A stretch of DNA of 20,372 nucleotides, from the IMG/VR virus record IMGVR_UViG_3300047380_000253, positions 1-20,372 of that record; one strand, written 5' to 3'. The notes beneath the pieces were generated by a model. That model was not told the DNA's origin, searched no databases, and worked only from the letters and a program-made list of their open reading frames with translations. Below are positions 2,880 to 20,372 of the stretch, in pieces (position 1 is the first letter of the stretch; the number at the start of each line of letters is the position of its first letter). This DNA is from a virus. Made by a program: the position numbers and the translations under genes.

Positions 2880-2910
2880 GGGGGCTTCTTAGCCCCCTCT
2901 CTCTTTGTTT
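2879..2910. terminator. Bidirectional intrinsic terminator between convergent operons
   Basis: A 7-bp GC-rich stem (GGGGGCT at 2880-2886 and AGCCCCC at 2891-2897, extended by an A-T pair at 2879/2898) encloses a 4-base TCTT loop. On the + strand it is followed by a T-rich CTCTCTTTGTTT tract. Read on the - strand it is followed by TTATTTTATT. It sits in the 29-base gap between the ends of the opposing gene sets, so it likely stops transcription from both sides. Confidence 0.85.
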
Positions 2911-5900
2911 ATAACTGACCTGCTTCGTCATAGGCATCTTTGAGATGCTCACTATAACTTATAAATAGATCTAGCTCAGCGAAAGAGTAGTCTTCTATTT
3001 CACCACTCACACCAAACTTTTCTTTCATTACTTTCTGAGCTTCGGATGTTATCTCTTTAGAGAACTTTGACTGTGCTTTATATACGGCTCTTAGCTTAAC
3101 GTTATCCCCTGTAGTATAACCACTGTCCAACTTCTCACGTATCTGCTTCTTAGCGCTACGTAGTACAGCCTTTAACATACCGCGTCTTTCAGGCAGGTCA
3201 GCTTTCATAAACTTCTCTGTCCTTAAAAGTCTCTGCGTCTGTCTTTCTAAGATAGGCGCTAACATACCGTTGAAAGCTCTATCATAGGCAGGTAGTTTAG
3301 ATCTTTCATTAGCAGTCCAAGCTTGCATCTCAGACATAGAGTATGCTTTCTCAGTAGCTGTACGACCTTGCTTTATAGTTAGACCAAAGATTCTAGCAAA
3401 GGGGTTAGCGTCATATATCTCACCCTCTCTTGTTGCTACTTTTAAATCTTCACCAGTAATAGTATCTGTCTTACCTATGAATGCCTCAAGAATGTTATCA
3501 AAGTATTTTGTAGAAGTCTGAGTAAACAAACCAGCGCCATCAGCCTGTCTTACATCTTTAGCTGTATCTGTACCCATAGCAAAACCTACAATCTTATTGA
3601 CAGCATCTAAGGGTCTAGTAGTACCTGCTAAGATATTACCAAATGTTTTTTGGAAGGCGTTAAACTGTGCACCTCTTGCACCCTCGTCTTGGTTTATCAA
3701 TACATCTAGTATATTGTTTAGATCATTACCAAACTGAGCATCTTTTGCTAACTGTCCTACAGCAACTTGAGTACCCATCTCTTGTATAAGCTCTGGTGGT
3801 ACAGTCTCGCCATTCATTTTCATATTGACGATACGCCCAGCGGCAAGGAAGGCAGAGAAAGGGTAGGTGTTTTTAGCATCTATAATCTTACCGCCACCTA
3901 CATTAATCTCGAATACACCTAAGCCATCATCCCTACGTTCTTTATCATACTGAGCAGCAAGTGCTAAACCAGCTGTCCCAACTATTGTACGAGCAGCCGC
4001 ATCCATTTCCGTGATATTATCTACCCCTTCAGTCTTAGCCATTCGTTTAAACACAGGTTTAAGTAGTGTCTCAGGTGCAGAGAGGAACGACCACTGATAA
4101 GCAGTAGCCACAACGTTGTTAAAGAAACGACCAAAGGGTAGTATAGTACCTAACCCTGGTGTATTAGATACAGTCTCTACAAACTTTGCCGCTGTTCTAA
4201 TAAGCTCTGGTTGTTCTGCTGTAGTATAGTCTTTAGCAAACACAGACTTTAGAGTAGTATCTAGCGCACCTGATATAACCTCATCATCAATAATTATATC
4301 ATCAGATAGTAAGGCTTCTTTAAGAGTAACACCTCTCTTTAATCTTAGATATTTATCCATATCAGTCATAAACATTTGAGACTTGGTAAATGTATCTTGT
4401 ATACGCACACCTGTTATCTGATTCATAGCTCTAGTAAAAGCTTCTACATTACGAAAGGTTGGGTTATTAGGGTCCATACCATAACGTTTAGCTGATGCAT
4501 CTACACCACCTGCCATAGTTTCAAACAATACCTTTTGTGCGTTTAAGTTTTCAGGGTCTTCTAGAAACTTCATGTACGCATCACGTGTAGTATATGGGTC
4601 CATCAAGTTACGAATCTTTTGTACTTGTAGTGAACTGAGAGCACGTGCCTGTCTAAATGATTCCTGTGCACCCTTACGATTGGTGACACTCTGTGCTAAA
4701 CCTTTAGTCATTAACGCTGTTGAACTAAACAGATCAGCAACAGTTTGACCTACATAGTACTGGCTAAAACCAGCAACGTTTAATGCTGTAGTAGCAGGTG
4801 AAGAAACAAGTAATCGTTTCCATACAGACTGACCATAACGTATTGGCTCAGCTGGCTTAGGAACTTTTGTACCATCAGCTAATGTCTTTTCAGAATCCTC
4901 AGCTTTTTTAATAGTGTTAGCCTGTAGTTTTATCTTAGTCTCAGCTGCTAATAAACCAGCGTTTAAAGTTTTACTAACCTCTGATGCTACTTGTAGAGTT
5001 TTACCAGCCTCACTAAAACGGTCAGCCATAAGATCCCCTAGTTTAACACGTGTACCAGTAAGGTTTCCAAAGGTAAATCCTGTATGCTTACCTATAGATA
5101 CGTTAATATCTTTGAGTTCTTTTTGTGTAAGTGAGTTAGCTACGTTAGTCATAACGTCAGATATATGAACCTCTTTACCAACCTTGTATCCCTTAGATCT
5201 GAACACCCCAACAAGGCCACCTATCTCACCTGCTTTTAACTCATCGGGATCACCAAACATAATCTCTCTAATAAGTTGAGAGTCATCTATTACATCGCCT
5301 CTACCCTTCTTACCTCTAGCTACCTTAGCATTCCACTTATCTGCCGCTTTACGTATAGCTTTAGCCGCCTCAGGTGTGTCTGCTTTCTTTAGAATAGGAG
5401 AATATAAATCTATTGTATTCTGTGCTAACTTCTCCGTTTCTGTGCGAGTATCTTCAAAGCCTGATTTACCAGCGCCTAGCTTACGTGTAACAAGTTGTGC
5501 AGCACCTGCAACACCACCAAGGAGAGCAGAGAAAGCACTCTGTGTTTTACTAAACGAATCCTGTGCTCCTACTGCTAGACGAGCCTCTTGATTTGCAATA
5601 TCTTGATAGACTGCAGCTGTAGCGTCCAACGCTGTAGTAGCATATAATGATTTAGTTGCCGCTGATTTAAACAGATCCTGTTGTGCTTTTTTCATAGCAT
5701 CTCTGGGCATAGTCTTCATAGCCTCTGTCTCAACAAGCTTAGAGACTTTATCATACACGCCTTTAGTTCTTGTCTTGGTCATACCTCTAGCCGCCGCACG
5801 TGCCGCCGCTTCTCTACCAGCTTTACGACCAGCATCTATAGCGGCTTGTTTTGTAGCACCAGATTGTAATGCTTCTCTACCAGCCCTGCGTACTGCCGCT

Positions 5901-6415
5901 TTGATAACTTGCTTACCACTTACTTGAACACCACCAGCTGCAGCTCTACCTATACCACCAGTAAGTATACCTAAGTAGTTAGTAGGATCAGAAGCCGCTG
6001 CAAACACGTAGTCGCCTACACCTTTTACTGCACCCATTAAACCATCATTAACAAAGACGTTACCTAGTTGATCATATATTTGATAAGCTTTACGTGCTGT
6101 CTCTTTTTGTCTGTCGTTTGCTTTAGTAACAAATCTAACTTCACCTGCAGTCATTACAGTATTAGAGTTGAAGTAACGCATGTGCTTTACAAAATCATCT
6201 ACTACATCTTCATCAGATTTAGTTTGATAATCTACACCCATACGTTCAATCATATAATCACGGATAGGTGAATTATACTTATAGTCTTTTCGTATGTCGT
6301 CTAAAGATAATGTTTCTTCTGGGTCAAACGATAGAGTTTCATACTCCTTTTTAGTAGAAGTATCTACACCACTGTAAAGGTTTTTCATATATTCTTTTTG
6401 TTCAAAGTAATTCAT
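2909..6415 (-). CDS. Large internal virion (ejection-type) protein, 1168 residues
   Basis: Last gene of the leftward late operon; its stop lies beside the shared terminator. The protein is very long, largely soluble and helical. An Ala/Gly/Arg-rich segment at about 150-225 (AAAGG, REAAARAAARG) suggests membrane- or DNA-interacting helices. Further semi-hydrophobic stretches occur in the middle and C-terminal half, for example around TALNVAGFSQYYVG and LPFGRFFNNVVATAY. Size and position after other virion genes match the large internal core proteins of short-tailed phages (T7 gp16-like), which are ejected to span the cell envelope. No lysozyme motif was found in it, unlike T7 gp16, and the lysis-type domain lies instead in the gene at 8808-10052. 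Homology to gp16 itself is not claimed. Confidence 0.7.
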   Translation of the reverse strand: MNYFEQKEYMKNLYSGVDTSTKKEYETLSFDPEETLSLDDIRKDYKYNSPIRDYMIERMGVDYQTKSDEDVVDDFVKHMRYFNSNTVMTAGEVRFVTKANDRQKETARKAYQIYDQLGNVFVNDGLMGAVKGVGDYVFAAASDPTNYLGILTGGIGRAAAGGVQVSGKQVIKAAVRRAGREALQSGATKQAAIDAGRKAGREAAARAAARGMTKTRTKGVYDKVSKLVETEAMKTMPRDAMKKAQQDLFKSAATKSLYATTALDATAAVYQDIANQEARLAVGAQDSFSKTQSAFSALLGGVAGAAQLVTRKLGAGKSGFEDTRTETEKLAQNTIDLYSPILKKADTPEAAKAIRKAADKWNAKVARGKKGRGDVIDDSQLIREIMFGDPDELKAGEIGGLVGVFRSKGYKVGKEVHISDVMTNVANSLTQKELKDINVSIGKHTGFTFGNLTGTRVKLGDLMADRFSEAGKTLQVASEVSKTLNAGLLAAETKIKLQANTIKKAEDSEKTLADGTKVPKPAEPIRYGQSVWKRLLVSSPATTALNVAGFSQYYVGQTVADLFSSTALMTKGLAQSVTNRKGAQESFRQARALSSLQVQKIRNLMDPYTTRDAYMKFLEDPENLNAQKVLFETMAGGVDASAKRYGMDPNNPTFRNVEAFTRAMNQITGVRIQDTFTKSQMFMTDMDKYLRLKRGVTLKEALLSDDIIIDDEVISGALDTTLKSVFAKDYTTAEQPELIRTAAKFVETVSNTPGLGTILPFGRFFNNVVATAYQWSFLSAPETLLKPVFKRMAKTEGVDNITEMDAAARTIVGTAGLALAAQYDKERRDDGLGVFEINVGGGKIIDAKNTYPFSAFLAAGRIVNMKMNGETVPPELIQEMGTQVAVGQLAKDAQFGNDLNNILDVLINQDEGARGAQFNAFQKTFGNILAGTTRPLDAVNKIVGFAMGTDTAKDVRQADGAGLFTQTSTKYFDNILEAFIGKTDTITGEDLKVATREGEIYDANPFARIFGLTIKQGRTATEKAYSMSEMQAWTANERSKLPAYDRAFNGMLAPILERQTQRLLRTEKFMKADLPERRGMLKAVLRSAKKQIREKLDSGYTTGDNVKLRAVYKAQSKFSKEITSEAQKVMKEKFGVSGEIEDYSFAELDLFISYSEHLKDAYDEAGQL

Positions 6416-10053: not shown

Positions 10054-11925
10054 TTATAAATTCCTGAATAATAGTTTGGCTGCGTTAGTGGCGATCTCTC
10101 CAAGGAACTTTCCTGATGCCGCTGATAGGCCACTAGAGTCAGTGTCGCCCCCAGCAGAAGCAGATGCCTCAGCTTGAATTTTAGCCATAGCAATGTTAGC
10201 ATCCCTTTCAGCAGCATTTTCACCTGACTGCCAAGCCCAAGCAAGAACATCACGTTCACGTTGAACCATATTATTATATGCAGTCATAGTTAAGTTGTTA
10301 GCGGCAAGAGCCGCGTCACGATTAGCTTGGTTGTCAGCTGCGTTTTCAGCTGTTGTTATAGACTGCGCCCACTGAGCGTTAGCCTGTGCTACAACTAAAT
10401 GGTTAGTAGCGTTGAACTGATCACGTGCATTCTCTTGATCTGTGTTAAATCTAGATAAAGCATTAGCTTCACCAGCGTTGAAACGAGACATAGCATTCTT
10501 TTGCTCAGAGTTAAACTGTGATACCTGCGTAGCAAGTGTAGCAAAGAATTGGTTAGTCTGATTTTCAGATGAAGCGTTAAACTGTTTAGCCGCATTCTCT
10601 TGTGCTGTATCAGACAGAATAGTATTAACACGCTCTTGAGCTTTAAACATGTTTGTCTGTTGCTCATTGCTTAGGTTAGTCATATCCATCTGTAAGAAAG
10701 CTTGAGCATTCTGTAGCTGGGCTTGCTGTCTATTGTTTAGATTAGCCATATCCATCTGAGACATAGCCGCTGCATCAGCCATAACCTTAGCTTGACGATT
10801 ACTTAGATTAGCTAGGTTCATAGTCTGAGCCATCTTAGCATTCTCAAGAGCTACCTGCTGTTGTGCTGTAAAGTTCATGTTAGCTATCTCAGATACCTTA
10901 GCCGCGTTCTGAACCTTAGCTTGGAAGTCTTGAGTAAATTCCATGTTGAGGAAACCAGCGCGTTGACGTGCCGATTCCATAGCAACCTCTTGTTTGTTAG
11001 AGGCATCCATCTGAGCTATAGGTAGTGCAGATTCCATAGCCGCTTGTACAATAGCCATACCAGCCATAGATGAAGCAGATAAACCTCTAGCTGCCATCCT
11101 TGCGGTAGCACCTCTCATAGCTCCTGCCGCCCATGCTGGTGTAGAGCCACCCTCAAAGTCTGCCATTAGGGAAGACATCTCGTCCTGAACACTAGCCGCT
11201 TCTAGCTTCTCTGTTCCATATATGTCTTGTACTTTTTGTTGATCTACAGAAGAACCATCTATAGTTTCGCCTGTCTCAAGTACACGTGTAGGAGCATTTT
11301 CTACTTTAGCTGCCTCACCCTGAGCCGCCTCTAGCTCTAACTGTGCTAACTTTGTAGGATCTCCTGTAGCCGCTGTCATAGTAGCTTCGTCACTTACAGT
11401 ACCTGTAGCTGCGGTAACACCTGCAAGTGCTTTATCTACAGCTGGAGCCGCAGTAGCTGAATCTATAGTAGATACTGGTGTGGTTGGTGAAGCTACTGCT
11501 TCTGGTGCTTGTTCAGCTGTTACATTTGTAGCTGTATTAGCGTCACCTAGTTGACCTGTACCTGTAGCAATCTCTGTACCCGTACCAGTATTAGCTACTG
11601 TATCGGCTTTGATGGTTAACTTACGAGGGTCTGTTGTTATAGCAGAAGTCATAGTACTTGCGCCACTATTAACTACAGTACCTTCATCTGTAGTAGTCTC
11701 TTCTTCCTCTGTAGTAGTACCACCTTCAGCCATCATCTTAACAGGATTACCTTCTATGGTTCTCCTAGCCGCTAGTGTGAACTTACCCATTCTAGCCGCC
11801 GCCGCAGGGTTGGATGATAGAAAGAGATTAATAGATTTTTGATCCGTAGGGCCGTTATATCCCAGCGCTGGTAAAACCTTATTCTTTAATGTTTCAGGTT
11901 TAAACCCTACAAACTTTTTTGCCAT
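10054..11925 (-). CDS. Virion structural protein with long hendecad coiled-coil region
   Basis: A 623-residue protein. Residues 1-65 are a small compact region, 70-250 are Thr/Ala/Glu-rich low complexity, and 262-305 contain the strongly patterned PAWAAGAMRGATARMAARGL segment ending MESALPIAQ. This segment is familiar from structural proteins of marine tailed phages. Residues about 310-580 form a long helical rod with 22- then 11-residue repeats. The C-terminus is Gly/Ser-rich. It is the largest tail-side structural protein of the operon, ending 1 base before the start of the LysM gene. A rod or fibre-like component is likely; the exact virion position is unknown. Confidence 0.72.
   Translation of the reverse strand: MAKKFVGFKPETLKNKVLPALGYNGPTDQKSINLFLSSNPAAAARMGKFTLAARRTIEGNPVKMMAEGGTTTEEEETTTDEGTVVNSGASTMTSAITTDPRKLTIKADTVANTGTGTEIATGTGQLGDANTATNVTAEQAPEAVASPTTPVSTIDSATAAPAVDKALAGVTAATGTVSDEATMTAATGDPTKLAQLELEAAQGEAAKVENAPTRVLETGETIDGSSVDQQKVQDIYGTEKLEAASVQDEMSSLMADFEGGSTPAWAAGAMRGATARMAARGLSASSMAGMAIVQAAMESALPIAQMDASNKQEVAMESARQRAGFLNMEFTQDFQAKVQNAAKVSEIANMNFTAQQQVALENAKMAQTMNLANLSNRQAKVMADAAAMSQMDMANLNNRQQAQLQNAQAFLQMDMTNLSNEQQTNMFKAQERVNTILSDTAQENAAKQFNASSENQTNQFFATLATQVSQFNSEQKNAMSRFNAGEANALSRFNTDQENARDQFNATNHLVVAQANAQWAQSITTAENAADNQANRDAALAANNLTMTAYNNMVQRERDVLAWAWQSGENAAERDANIAMAKIQAEASASAGGDTDSSGLSAASGKFLGEIATNAAKLLFRNL
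10354..10584 (-). repeat. Seven tandem 11-residue (33-bp) repeats, [QR]FN register
   Basis: Within the coiled-coil protein, QFN/RFN-type triplets recur at residues 448, 459, 470, 481, 492, 503 and 514, exactly 11 apart. The units read like QFNASSENQTN, RFNAGEANALS and RFNTDQENARD. A strict hendecad period predicts a nearly straight or right-handed coiled coil. Confidence 0.85.
10624..10821 (-). repeat. Three tandem 22-residue (66-bp) repeats
   Basis: Units start at residues 369, 391 and 413 of the coiled-coil protein: MNLANLSNRQ..., MDMANLNNRQ... and MDMTNLSNEQ... Each is twice the 11-residue period of the downstream array, so the two repeat blocks share one geometry. Confidence 0.8.
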
Positions 11926-17425: not shown

Positions 17426-17891
17426 GAGTCTCTTCCCATTCTAAAATAACTTGCTCTGAAAAATCTTCTGTCTTAAACCACTCCCTATTCAATAATCTAA
17501 TCTTTGGTTGTGTGTCTTTAGATATTACTGTAGGTATCTTTTGATTGTAGTACAATGAACAAGCTATCCTGTGAGCGCCTCCATTTATTGTTTTTACAGA
17601 ATTAGAGTATATAGGATATTGTTTATTATAACCTTTTGTTTTAAAACTTTCAATCAGTAAATCAAAACTATTAATATAATCCTGTATATTATTCTTAGGT
17701 GTTTGATCCCTAATATATTTGTCTGTAGGTTCTACTCCTTGCGTCTGTGCTTGTATACACTCTTTATATATTTCTTTGTAGTGTAGGTGGTTTGTGTTTT
17801 CGTTCTTAGATTTTACATATAAATATCTACACATAATATCTAATCTAGCAGAGTCTAAAAAGTACGAAGGATCTACTTCAATAACTTTCAT
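17400..17891 (-). CDS. ParB/sulfiredoxin-like domain protein
   Basis: 163 residues. The N-terminal half is helical and charged. A core at 75-123 reads FDLLIESFKTKGY, YPIYSNSVKTI, then NGGAHRIACSLYYNQKIP. The N-G-G-A-H-R-I-A box (103-110) matches the G-x-H-R nucleotide/phosphate-binding loop of ParB/Srx-fold proteins. Chromosome partition is not implied; related phage domains act in nucleotide binding, kinase or nuclease roles. It starts one base into the adhesin's stop (TAATG) and overlaps the next gene, so it is locked into the adhesin unit. Function unknown. Confidence 0.6.
   Translation of the reverse strand: MKVIEVDPSYFLDSARLDIMCRYLYVKSKNENTNHLHYKEIYKECIQAQTQGVEPTDKYIRDQTPKNNIQDYINSFDLLIESFKTKGYNKQYPIYSNSVKTINGGAHRIACSLYYNQKIPTVISKDTQPKIRLLNREWFKTEDFSEQVILEWEETLDKLSGSR
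17430..17437 (-). promoter_or_regulatory. Shine-Dalgarno GGGAAGAG deciding the TTG start
   Basis: GGGAAGAG lies 4 bases before the TTG at 17425 and no ATG occurs in frame nearby. The later in-frame GTG has no comparable site, so the TTG is preferred. Confidence 0.5.
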
Positions 17892-18826
17892 TATACATTA
17901 CCATAGACGTGTCCGTTATTTGTATACGTATATGATAGGCTTGCGTTAATAGCATCACCACCAGCGCCCCCACCATTTTCACCTGCGCGACCCCAACCGC
18001 CACCGCCGTTAGAACCTGCGCCATCTGTGTTTGATGTTGAGCTTAGAACAGAACCACCTGGGGCAGGGCTATTGGATACGTATCCAGATACGTTGAAAGA
18101 CCCCTGACCTCCTGACCAAAAAGTACCATATGAAATAACAGAACAGCTACCATATGATGTAGCTGGTGTAACACCACCACCACCTTGATCGCCACCTGTA
18201 CCACCTAATACTCCGATTGTACAAGAGCCACCACTCGCATTACCGTTTGTCCTAACCATACCTGGGTGTGATAAATAACCTATGGTACTACCATTACTTG
18301 AAGCTGTGTTATATGAACTTTGACCTGCACCACCACCGCCTCCAGCACCTCCACCACCACCACCGCCACCTGCGATAAATGCACCAGAGTTGTTAGTTAC
18401 TGTAGTACCTGTTGCAGTTATACTAATAGCGTGACCACCTGCTGTAGAATGACTACCGCCACGTCCAAAAATAGCACCACTGTTTATAAGTACGGAGTCA
18501 GCCACATCTATTGTTAACGAAGGTGTAGATGATGACATAGAGCGAATGTGTACGCCAGAATCTACAGTCATTATGATAGGCACTGTTCCGTCCCAACCTG
18601 CCGCTGTTGCTAGAGTACTTAAAGTAGAAGCCCCATCTATACCCGTAGAAACATTAAAAGAGAAAGCATCTTGTGCACCATACCATTCAGTCATAGACAT
18701 CTGAGCACCTGCAGCCTTACCAATAAGACCTCTAACATCAGCATCATTCAAAGATGTTGAACCAGAGATGCCAAGCTCTGTCATTATATCCTGCATAGAT
18801 ATTGCACCGCTACTAGTTACTGGCAT
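17891..18826 (-). CDS. Glycine-rich host-recognition adhesin (T4-type gp38-like)
   Basis: 311 residues. An N-terminal module has SSGAISMQDIMTELG, SLNDADVRGLIGKAAGAQMS and MTEWYGAQ, widely seen in marine phage tail fibres. A beta-solenoid-like central part (80-150) is followed by polyglycine runs at 153-167, 207-218 and 273-290. Between them lie variable Ser/Asn/Tyr-rich loops, and the end is YTYTNNGHVYGNV. Alternating glycine-rich motifs and variable loops are the hallmark of the distal gp38 adhesin of T4-like phages, which binds the outer-membrane receptor. ATG overlaps the halogenase-like stop by 10 bases. A generic Gly-rich fibre tip is the alternative. Confidence 0.75.
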   Translation of the reverse strand: MPVTSSGAISMQDIMTELGISGSTSLNDADVRGLIGKAAGAQMSMTEWYGAQDAFSFNVSTGIDGASTLSTLATAAGWDGTVPIIMTVDSGVHIRSMSSSTPSLTIDVADSVLINSGAIFGRGGSHSTAGGHAISITATGTTVTNNSGAFIAGGGGGGGGAGGGGGAGQSSYNTASSNGSTIGYLSHPGMVRTNGNASGGSCTIGVLGGTGGDQGGGGVTPATSYGSCSVISYGTFWSGGQGSFNVSGYVSNSPAPGGSVLSSTSNTDGAGSNGGGGWGRAGENGGGAGGDAINASLSYTYTNNGHVYGNV

Positions 18827-20025
18827 AATCCAAGCCCTATCTTATTTTGTGAAAATGAACCCTCCCACCAGTTATTGTATAGAGCGTTAAACTGCTCTGT
18901 CTTAACAAGTGGCATTTTAAATTTGTCAGAGTAAGACCCTATACTATTAGGTTCTTTTGAATATTCAAGCATATAGTGTAAACTAGCGTCTGCATTCTCC
19001 ATACACTTAATACCTCTCTCCTTAGCATAAGACCAAAAGTCACTTTTAAAAGAGGAGCCTGATGCATAATGTAACATTATAATATTCTCACAAGCGTCTA
19101 AGTAAGCATGGTATTTAGTATTAGCTAACTCTAAAGAATCGTTTTCAAACCATTTATTTGTAGCCATGTAGTTAATATTATCTACCGTACCAAAAGAGGT
19201 AGCCTCAAGTGGCTCTAAGAAGAAAGACGCATTTCCATTATACACAATATTGTCTTTAAAATTATTTTTACGCCTATAGTTAGAAAAACTAAATGAGTTG
19301 GTAGTTCCATTAGGAACTAAGTTATACTCATCTAGTATAAACTCTACGTCTGCTTTAACTTCTTCTAATGTATTTATATCTTTATTATACATATACCCTA
19401 TAGAGCAACGGTTCTTTAGGGGTATGCCAAACACCCAACCATAAGGACGGGCTATAGCTAGTGTATGACTAAATCTTGGATAATCCCAAGAGCACTGTGT
19501 TACATGAACAGCATTTACAGCAATGTACTTTGATAATTCAAAGTCTTCAAAGGAAGAAGGTTTACCAGAACAATCAATAATGTAATCCGCGTCTATGTTA
19601 TCAGAGGAGACATTTTGTTCCTTTATAGATACGACATCTTTTAACTTAGAATAAACATAATCCTGTAACTTAGGTGCATCAAAATGTATTCCTGTTGAAG
19701 GGCTTGGGAAATCGTGAGTGAAAGGTTTTCCAACACTACCCCAACCCTCTTTATAAATACCTGTCTTTATAGTTGCACCCACAGCATCAAACTCTCTAGG
19801 AGAAAAGTTTAAGCATTCATTAAGTCTCCTAGGTAAACTTATCGTTGATCCTTCTCCTACAGCCTGTGGCTTTATAGAGGGGTCAAAGTACCATTCTATT
19901 TCATCTGCGTTTATATAACGGCTACAATAGGCAGCTGTCATACACCCAGCTGTACCCTTACCTACTACAGCAACCCTCAATCCATCATCCCTAATCCGAG
20001 AATCCCAAACATTTCCCATTCCCAT
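18817..20025 (-). CDS. Flavin-dependent tryptophan-halogenase-like enzyme
   Basis: 402 residues from the ATG at 20025 (numbering used here). The FAD-binding start is VAVVGKGTAGCMTAAY (18-33), followed by AVGEGSTISLP (56-65). The halogenase catalytic-lysine context appears as ATIKTGIYKEGW with K87, comparable to K79 of PrnA/RebH. The usual WxWxIP motif is degenerate (GWVFGIP, 196-202), and the halide-side PLEST becomes PLEATSFG (272-279) with E274 kept. Length is shorter than the usual 500-540. A viral member, VirX1 of cyanophage Syn10, is reported to halogenate with iodide preference. The start is uncertain: ATG at 20025 overlaps the upstream gene by 49 bases and lacks a clear Shine-Dalgarno; TTG at 19980 has AGGGA and a 4-base overlap. 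Activity is unproven. Confidence 0.8.
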   Translation of the reverse strand: MGMGNVWDSRIRDDGLRVAVVGKGTAGCMTAAYCSRYINADEIEWYFDPSIKPQAVGEGSTISLPRRLNECLNFSPREFDAVGATIKTGIYKEGWGSVGKPFTHDFPSPSTGIHFDAPKLQDYVYSKLKDVVSIKEQNVSSDNIDADYIIDCSGKPSSFEDFELSKYIAVNAVHVTQCSWDYPRFSHTLAIARPYGWVFGIPLKNRCSIGYMYNKDINTLEEVKADVEFILDEYNLVPNGTTNSFSFSNYRRKNNFKDNIVYNGNASFFLEPLEATSFGTVDNINYMATNKWFENDSLELANTKYHAYLDACENIIMLHYASGSSFKSDFWSYAKERGIKCMENADASLHYMLEYSKEPNSIGSYSDKFKMPLVKTEQFNALYNNWWEGSFSQNKIGLGLCQ

Positions 20026-20246
20026 TCTGTAAAATAATCTGCATCAAGACCTACAATAAAATTTGGTTGGTTTTGAGGTATGTCTCTTAGCTTTTGACGG
20101 AAAGTAACCCATCTACTATCAGTAGGTCTGTCAGCCATAACATACACATCTGTTTTTCGTAACATTATATTTCTGTTAACACGGAATTGAGCGCTGTAGT
20201 TTTTAACGTCTGTATCACTAAGGCCATTATTATTAGAGTTAGTCAT
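19977..20246 (-). CDS. Phage tail assembly chaperone-like protein (APC family)
   Basis: 89 residues. The central element RNIMLRKTDVYVMADRP, then DSRWVTFRQKLRDIP, matches the R-xx-LL-xx-TD...YRQxLRDIP signature of phage tail assembly chaperones (PF16778-like). Such proteins help tail fibres fold or assemble. It lies between two glycine-rich fibre genes, consistent with that role. ATG at 20246 follows an AGGAT Shine-Dalgarno and an A-run. The C-terminus is short, with acidic and aromatic residues (TEWEWEMFG). Confidence 0.75.
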   Translation of the reverse strand: MTNSNNNGLSDTDVKNYSAQFRVNRNIMLRKTDVYVMADRPTDSRWVTFRQKLRDIPQNQPNFIVGLDADYFTEWEWEMFGILGLGMMD

Positions 20247-20261: not shown

Positions 20262-20372
20262 TTATTGTGGTTGTCTGTAAAACCTGATACTACCAGCTGC
20301 TCCATCGCCCCCAGGTAATGTAACATTTCCAACAGGTCCAGCCCCAGCACCCCCAGGTGCTGTACCATCATC
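20262..20372 (-). CDS. C-terminal end of a glycine-rich tail fibre protein, truncated by window edge
   Basis: A reading frame open to the right edge ends with TAA (20262-20264). The 36 visible residues are Gly/Pro/Ala-rich: DDGTAPGGAGAGPVGNVTL, then PGGDGAAGSIRFYRQPQ. The closing GAAGSIRFYR resembles C-termini of glycine-rich phage fibre proteins (G..G.vRi). It is the first gene seen of this operon. Frame and composition support a fibre; its size is unknown. Confidence 0.65.
   Translation of the reverse strand, partial: DDGTAPGGAGAGPVGNVTLPGGDGAAGSIRFYRQPQ

Follow-up and report, generated by a model that had tools for sequence, protein, structure and literature searches.

A compact phage halogenase-family protein that may modify tryptophans of the glycine-rich fibre tip encoded beside it

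The marine virus record IMGVR_UViG_3300047380_000253, a stretch of 20,372 bases that was analysed whole and is called the window here, encodes a compact protein of the flavin-dependent halogenase (FDH) family at 18817..20025 on the minus strand. Judged from its sequence, it is a real and conserved member of the family and not a proven halogenase. The gene lies in a cassette of fibre, chaperone and halogenase genes, together with a glycine-rich fibre tip. We give roughly even chances to the reading that it encodes a dedicated fibre-tip-modifying flavoenzyme, which would halogenate one or both of two conserved tryptophans in the tip. A broader proposal is somewhat less probable than that: a phage protein halogenase would put chlorine or bromine on conserved tryptophans of its own receptor-binding tip, the tip, chaperone and halogenase genes would form a mobile cassette, and the enzyme might belong to a wider oxidative, tip-decorating class that includes the Syn10 halogenase locus, where Gly_rich_2 proteins and 2OG oxygenases are encoded as well. 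If true, a viral receptor-binding protein would be halogenated post-translationally; this would bear on phage host recognition and be relevant to enzymes for site-specific protein halogenation.

Family, motifs and conservation of the halogenase protein

Conservation was counted over 50 compact phage homologues that are 43-95% identical to the window protein. The features of the gene and its neighbours are as follows.

18817..20025, minus strand: compact FDH of 402 aa, an ORF from ATG to stop (PF04820; PHROG 2928; AlphaFold2 and Foldseek)
19945..19962, minus strand: FAD-binding GxGxxG in the form GKGTAG, residues 22-27 (G22, G24 and G27 invariant, 50/50)
19765..19767, minus strand: K87 (in ATIK), counterpart of the catalytic lysine K79 of PrnA/RebH (invariant, 50/50; aligned with the Lys of RebH and the Syn10 halogenases)
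19420..19440, minus strand: GWVFGIP, residues 196-202, a WxF variant of WxWxIP (W197 and F199 invariant, 50/50)
19189..19212, minus strand: PLEATSFG, residues 272-279, a halide-loop variant with E274 as the counterpart of the catalytic glutamate (E274 and A275, 50/50)
19977..20246, minus strand: tail-fibre assembly chaperone (Phage_tail_APC) of 89 aa (PF16778, E 1.2e-9; conserved gene order)
20262..20372, minus strand: glycine-rich fibre-tip protein, truncated at the edge of the window to its last 36 codons and stop (frame DDGTAPGG...RFYRQPQ-stop)
17891..18826, minus strand: glycine-rich structural-type protein of 311 aa, directly downstream and overlapping the end of the halogenase gene by 10 bases

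The Pfam family Trp_halogenase (PF04820) matches the 402-aa ORF with E 3.1e-34 and 119.1 bits against a curated cut-off of 21, and the PHROG 2928 'tryptophan halogenase' profile matches it with E 4.5e-67. A phmmer search of the PDB retrieves tryptophan halogenases, including VirX1 (E 1.3e-11). The AlphaFold2 model, built on an alignment of window and IMG/VR sequences only, has a pLDDT of 92.9 and a pTM of 0.91. Its best Foldseek match in the PDB is PyrH (E 3.7e-25, TM 0.76), followed by other top matches to Xcc4156, SttH, BrvH and PrnA, while MibH is found at rank 50 (E 1.6e-22). The earlier note on this DNA had described a short, halogenase-like flavoenzyme. The profile, the alignment and the confident model support the family, the flavin fold on which that description depended is present as an FDH fold, and the length of 402 aa compares with 507 and 530 aa for the two Syn10 halogenases. 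The note had also placed GKGTAG, K87, GWVFGIP and E274 correctly, and in alignments with RebH and the Syn10 halogenases, K87 falls on the corresponding Lys.

The FX[DE]PX[EFL] signature is present as FLEPLE, in which E274 is the counterpart of PrnA E346 (50/50). The WxWxIP signature is absent from the 402-aa protein and is replaced by WVFGIP, with F199 in all 50 compact relatives; some FDHs, such as Bmp5, likewise have no WxWxIP or carry variants of it (PMC8407142). FxxPxxSxG, the tunnel motif of active FDHs (PMC8407142), is also absent from the protein, which has FLEPLEATS with A275 in 50/50. In the halide loop, Ala and Ser replace the Ser and Gly of PrnA, RebH and PyrH (PLEATS versus PLESTG). 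PLEATS also occurs in L036, a long phage halogenase with WxW, and the solved structure 9luq, the closest PDB sequence, has PLESTS.

G22, G24, G27, K87, W197, F199, E271, P272, E274 and A275 never vary in the compact homologues, so the FAD loop, K87 and E274 are retained as the note had claimed, and T276 and S277 are kept in 46 and 45 of the 50. At least 575 halogenase relatives were confirmed in IMG/VR. The dN/dS values of ten pairs of compact halogenases (0.03-0.15, about 0.1) show purifying selection on the coding sequence. Since WxF and PLEA are invariant in the 50 relatives and dN/dS is low, they read in these alignments as signatures of the clade and not as decay. The catalytic motifs are therefore altered relative to PrnA and RebH, as the note had it, but they are constant inside their own clade. 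Motif decay or a pseudogene is ruled out by the same conservation and by the dN/dS of about 0.1.

These motifs bear on two other readings. In the first, the tip would be modified without halogenation, as a flavin hydroperoxide hydroxylates or oxidises tip residues, in keeping with WxF and the altered halide loop. A role in suppressing monooxygenation has been proposed for WxWxIP (PMC8407142), and Phe stands at the position of its second Trp in 50/50; the exchange of halide-loop Ser and Gly for Ala and Ser fits this reading too, and so do the 2OG-Fe(II) oxygenases, a further class of hydroxylating enzymes encoded close to some of the compact relatives in large phages (a 2OG oxygenase lies <=6 genes away in 12 of 69 distinct compact halogenases). 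However, halogenation needs K87 and E274 while ordinary monooxygenation does not, and both residues are invariant; W197 is retained, and 9luq too has PLESTS in its loop. We consider non-halogenating oxidation of the tip rather improbable. The second reading, a flavin-fold assembly factor or tip co-chaperone in which catalysis is secondary or lost, draws on the adjoining Phage_tail_APC chaperone gene and on the departures from the PrnA motifs. It is very improbable, as the invariant FAD-loop glycines, K87 and E274 (50/50) and the dN/dS of about 0.1 speak for retention of the chemistry.

The fibre, chaperone and halogenase cassette

The gene had been placed inside a tail-fibre operon in the earlier note, and the Phage_tail_APC chaperone and glycine-rich fibre tip upstream of it bear this out. 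The chaperone gene runs 49 bases into the halogenase gene. Contig L003 represents the same virus (2.9 kb of overlap with the window, 2 mismatches and a single 1-base indel) and completes the tip protein that is cut in the window: the full glycine-rich product has 397 aa and follows a long fibre. In L004 the homologue of that long fibre has a C-terminal Peptidase_S74 chaperone domain. The 311-aa glycine-rich protein on the other side of the halogenase matches no Pfam family at E <= 1. Among the compared loci its relatives make up a cluster of 12, and it is possibly another fibre component.

The order of fibre, Phage_tail_APC chaperone and halogenase is found in nearly all near relatives among the loci first compared. 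In a tree of 81 halogenase rows, in which this order defines the tail-cassette label, the 25 rows with the label and L027 form one clade with support of 99/95. The label changes 2 times over the tree, compared with a shuffled mean of 21.6. L027, the sole unlabelled row of the clade, has its halogenase at a contig end where the upstream region is not covered. In every clade member with upstream sequence, a fibre protein and a tail-fibre chaperone precede the halogenase. In the larger sub-branch of the clade the glycine-rich tip ends the fibre wherever the fibre is visible, and the sister group of six rows (L046-L065) has another fibre type without the glycine-rich tip and a longer chaperone. 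A chaperone search returned a generic family at 80 loci, with tip and halogenase in only two, both already known. The chaperone family is mostly found without a halogenase, and therefore the chaperone alone is no predictor of the enzyme.

Compact halogenases of large phages that are more distantly related are mostly found at other locations. Like the different fibre of the sister group, this weighs against the tip reading. A second halogenase-family gene adjoins the compact one in L051, L064, L082, L085, L086, L088 and L099. Carbamoyltransferase-family genes (cluster c9) accompany compact halogenases in some large phages (L048, L055, L061, L062, L063, L071, L074 and L087). The contigs L100-L106, which also carry compact halogenases, were assigned to MAGs of Euryarchaeota, Chloroflexi, Actinomycetota or Poribacteria and are probably misbinned phage contigs.

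The window is a podovirus contig of HMO-2011 type, and its structural genes match those of such phages. Two ORFs in its structural region, 2909..6415 (1168 aa) and 10054..11925 (623 aa), have no PHROG match at E <= 0.01, and Rfam and tRNA scans were empty. Among cultured phages, Roseobacter phage CRP-207 is the closest relative: 88% of the first 8 kb aligns with it at 74% nucleotide identity. No halogenase is present in CRP-207 at 14000-44000, a range that contains the tail genes and that was also checked by HMM, and this phage is absent among the listed phage matches of the halogenase.

The cassette occurs with HMO-2011-type genes in the window, L004 and L025, beside a terminase and internal virion protein of T7 type in L009, L011 and L021, and with T4-type neck (gp15/neck) and sheath-stabiliser genes in L026 and L015. 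These marker genes show it on at least three phage backbones. Since the T7-like L021 and the HMO-2011-like L025 share tips that are 91% identical and halogenases that are 88% identical, their likeness points to recent transfer.

The fibre tip as candidate substrate

Two IMG/VR searches with tip alignments alone, the first with patterns that contain no tryptophan, gave 11 and 7 loci or 16 distinct contigs; the halogenase is present in 16 of 16, a perfect pairing that may be overstated because the starting tips were chosen beside halogenases and because the searches reach moderate divergence and fairly near relatives. A tip HMM matched 50 ORFs across all compared loci and 0 in the halogenase-free loci. 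Halogenase and tip distances over 18 loci are correlated (r 0.81, p 0.0001). The pairing of tip and halogenase in these contigs is strong but not unbiased. Other searches were less informative: the whole tip alignment has no stretch conserved enough to serve as a query, tblastn of the tips and the CRP-207 tip against named phages gave nothing useful, possibly through low-complexity filtering, and the matches of a 415-aa fibre query are dominated by its N-terminal part.

Fibre regions are recombination hot spots, and joint transfer of neighbours would likewise correlate their distances. The halogenase gene could thus be a hitch-hiker, placed by chance in a variable fibre region with no functional tie to the tip. 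This is the least probable explanation of all, given that the pairing holds in a fixed order on at least three backbones and that no tip without the enzyme occurs among the 16 contigs.

The substrate region of the enzyme differs from that of free-tryptophan halogenases. About 60 residues of the Syn10 halogenases are missing after P109 in the alignment, adjoining H104-x-F106. H104 (48/50) and F106 (49/50) are kept in the compact homologues and match the HxF that flanks the substrate site. The YY...E...N motif (Trp4 motif), which holds free tryptophan in RebH (PMC8269204), has no counterpart in the window protein in the RebH alignment, and W386 is tentatively aligned with the Trp of that motif. 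With this region shortened, the site would be able to accommodate a polypeptide in place of free tryptophan. Among the options raised in the earlier note, which also named an unusual halide preference and a flavin oxidoreductase relative, a halogenase with an unusual substrate fits best, as the free-tryptophan motif is missing and the gene is tied to one fibre-tip type.

The same evidence weighs on the classical view of an auxiliary metabolic gene, in which free tryptophan, indole or another small host molecule, for example an antimicrobial or a signal, would be halogenated, as speculated for cyanophage prnA. The family name and the activity of VirX1 on many small aromatics (PMC8407142) favour such a role, and protection against antibiotics was suggested earlier, in a 2010 review that called it speculative (PMC2984593). 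In contrast, the gene is flanked by fibre, chaperone and structural genes and overlaps its neighbours, no biosynthetic genes were recognised within the window, the free-tryptophan recognition motif is absent, and the pairing with one tip type is strict across backbones. A small-molecule role is unlikely on this evidence.

The gene order, the strict pairing and two invariant tryptophans make the tip a candidate substrate. In 17 dereplicated tips, most of them 22-42% identical to the L003 tip, only glycines, one serine and two tryptophans are invariant; the latter are W198 and W235 of the L003 protein (17/17). The W.[FP].G.G motif is absent from the Gly_rich_2 tip of CRP-207, the single halogenase-free relative tip that serves as a control, on a related backbone. 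A structural role for the invariant tip tryptophans is possible. The tip model is of moderate quality (pLDDT 77.7) and has a weak fold match to the Pam3 fibre (E 2.7e-3), whose glycine-rich domain is proposed to act in host recognition and is held by a chaperone (PMC9608196).

Modification of the fibre tip is the simplest account, most likely through halogenation of either or both tryptophans. If the protein is a tip halogenase, a host flavin reductase would supply FADH2, and the enzyme would form hypohalite from O2 and chloride or bromide, both plentiful in seawater. The hypohalite would go to K87, which together with E274 would halogenate one or both of the conserved tryptophans of the tip at the indole. 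This might take place around the time when the chaperone holds the tip, and receptor binding or tip stability would be tuned as a result.

Comparison with known systems

The free-tryptophan halogenases PrnA, RebH and PyrH have the fold, FAD loop, catalytic Lys, PLE glutamate and HxF near the substrate in common with the window protein. They differ in having YY...E...N, WxW and PLESTG, while the window protein has no such tryptophan-holding motif and carries WxF and PLEATS. VirX1 of cyanophage Syn10 (PDB 6QGM, 531 aa in the PDB) is a phage FDH like the window protein; it is active, prefers iodide and takes many small aromatics (PMC8407142). The Syn10 halogenases conserve the Lys and Glu as the window protein does, but they carry WxWxIP (with WVW), PLES and about 60 additional residues, in contrast to WxF, PLEA and the lack of these residues here. 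In the Syn10 locus (L283, 2236-11746), two Gly_rich_2 proteins precede the tandem long-form halogenases, and 2OG-Fe(II) oxygenase and JmjC_2/Cupin_8 genes follow them. This arrangement suggests that a larger group of oxidative enzymes accompanies proteins resembling fibre tips.

FDHs that act on Trp in ribosomal polypeptides include MibH and SrpI, and also ChlH (PMC12615548, PMC10858898); the substrate of MibH is a Trp in a lanthipeptide. MibH and SrpI act on small RiPP peptides and are encoded in biosynthetic clusters, whereas the putative substrate here would be a virion protein. The Pam3 fibre gp24 and its chaperone gp25 resemble the present tip and chaperone in combining a glycine-rich distal domain with a fibre chaperone, and the consulted part of that report describes no halogenase alongside them (PMC9608196).

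Phage 'tryptophan halogenases' have long been annotated, and in cyanophages such genes have been on record for years without a known natural substrate. Searches of the open-access literature turned up no phage halogenase with a described fibre substrate. The new element here is the genomic context, namely the fibre, chaperone and halogenase cassette and the tip tryptophans; the earlier note had described neither, although it named tail-fibre peptides among the substrates worth assaying. Compact phage enzymes of the same family and length class (about 360-415 aa, with WxF) are grouped in PHROG 2928 and T4-like gene cluster 212, and examples are those of S-RIM4 (QBQ74919, 46% identical to the window protein), S-ShM2, S-SSM7 and Sf-CH5. 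These belong to large cyanomyoviruses and have no such fibre chaperone adjoining them in the regions compared, whereas those of the present clade stand in the fibre and chaperone cassette.
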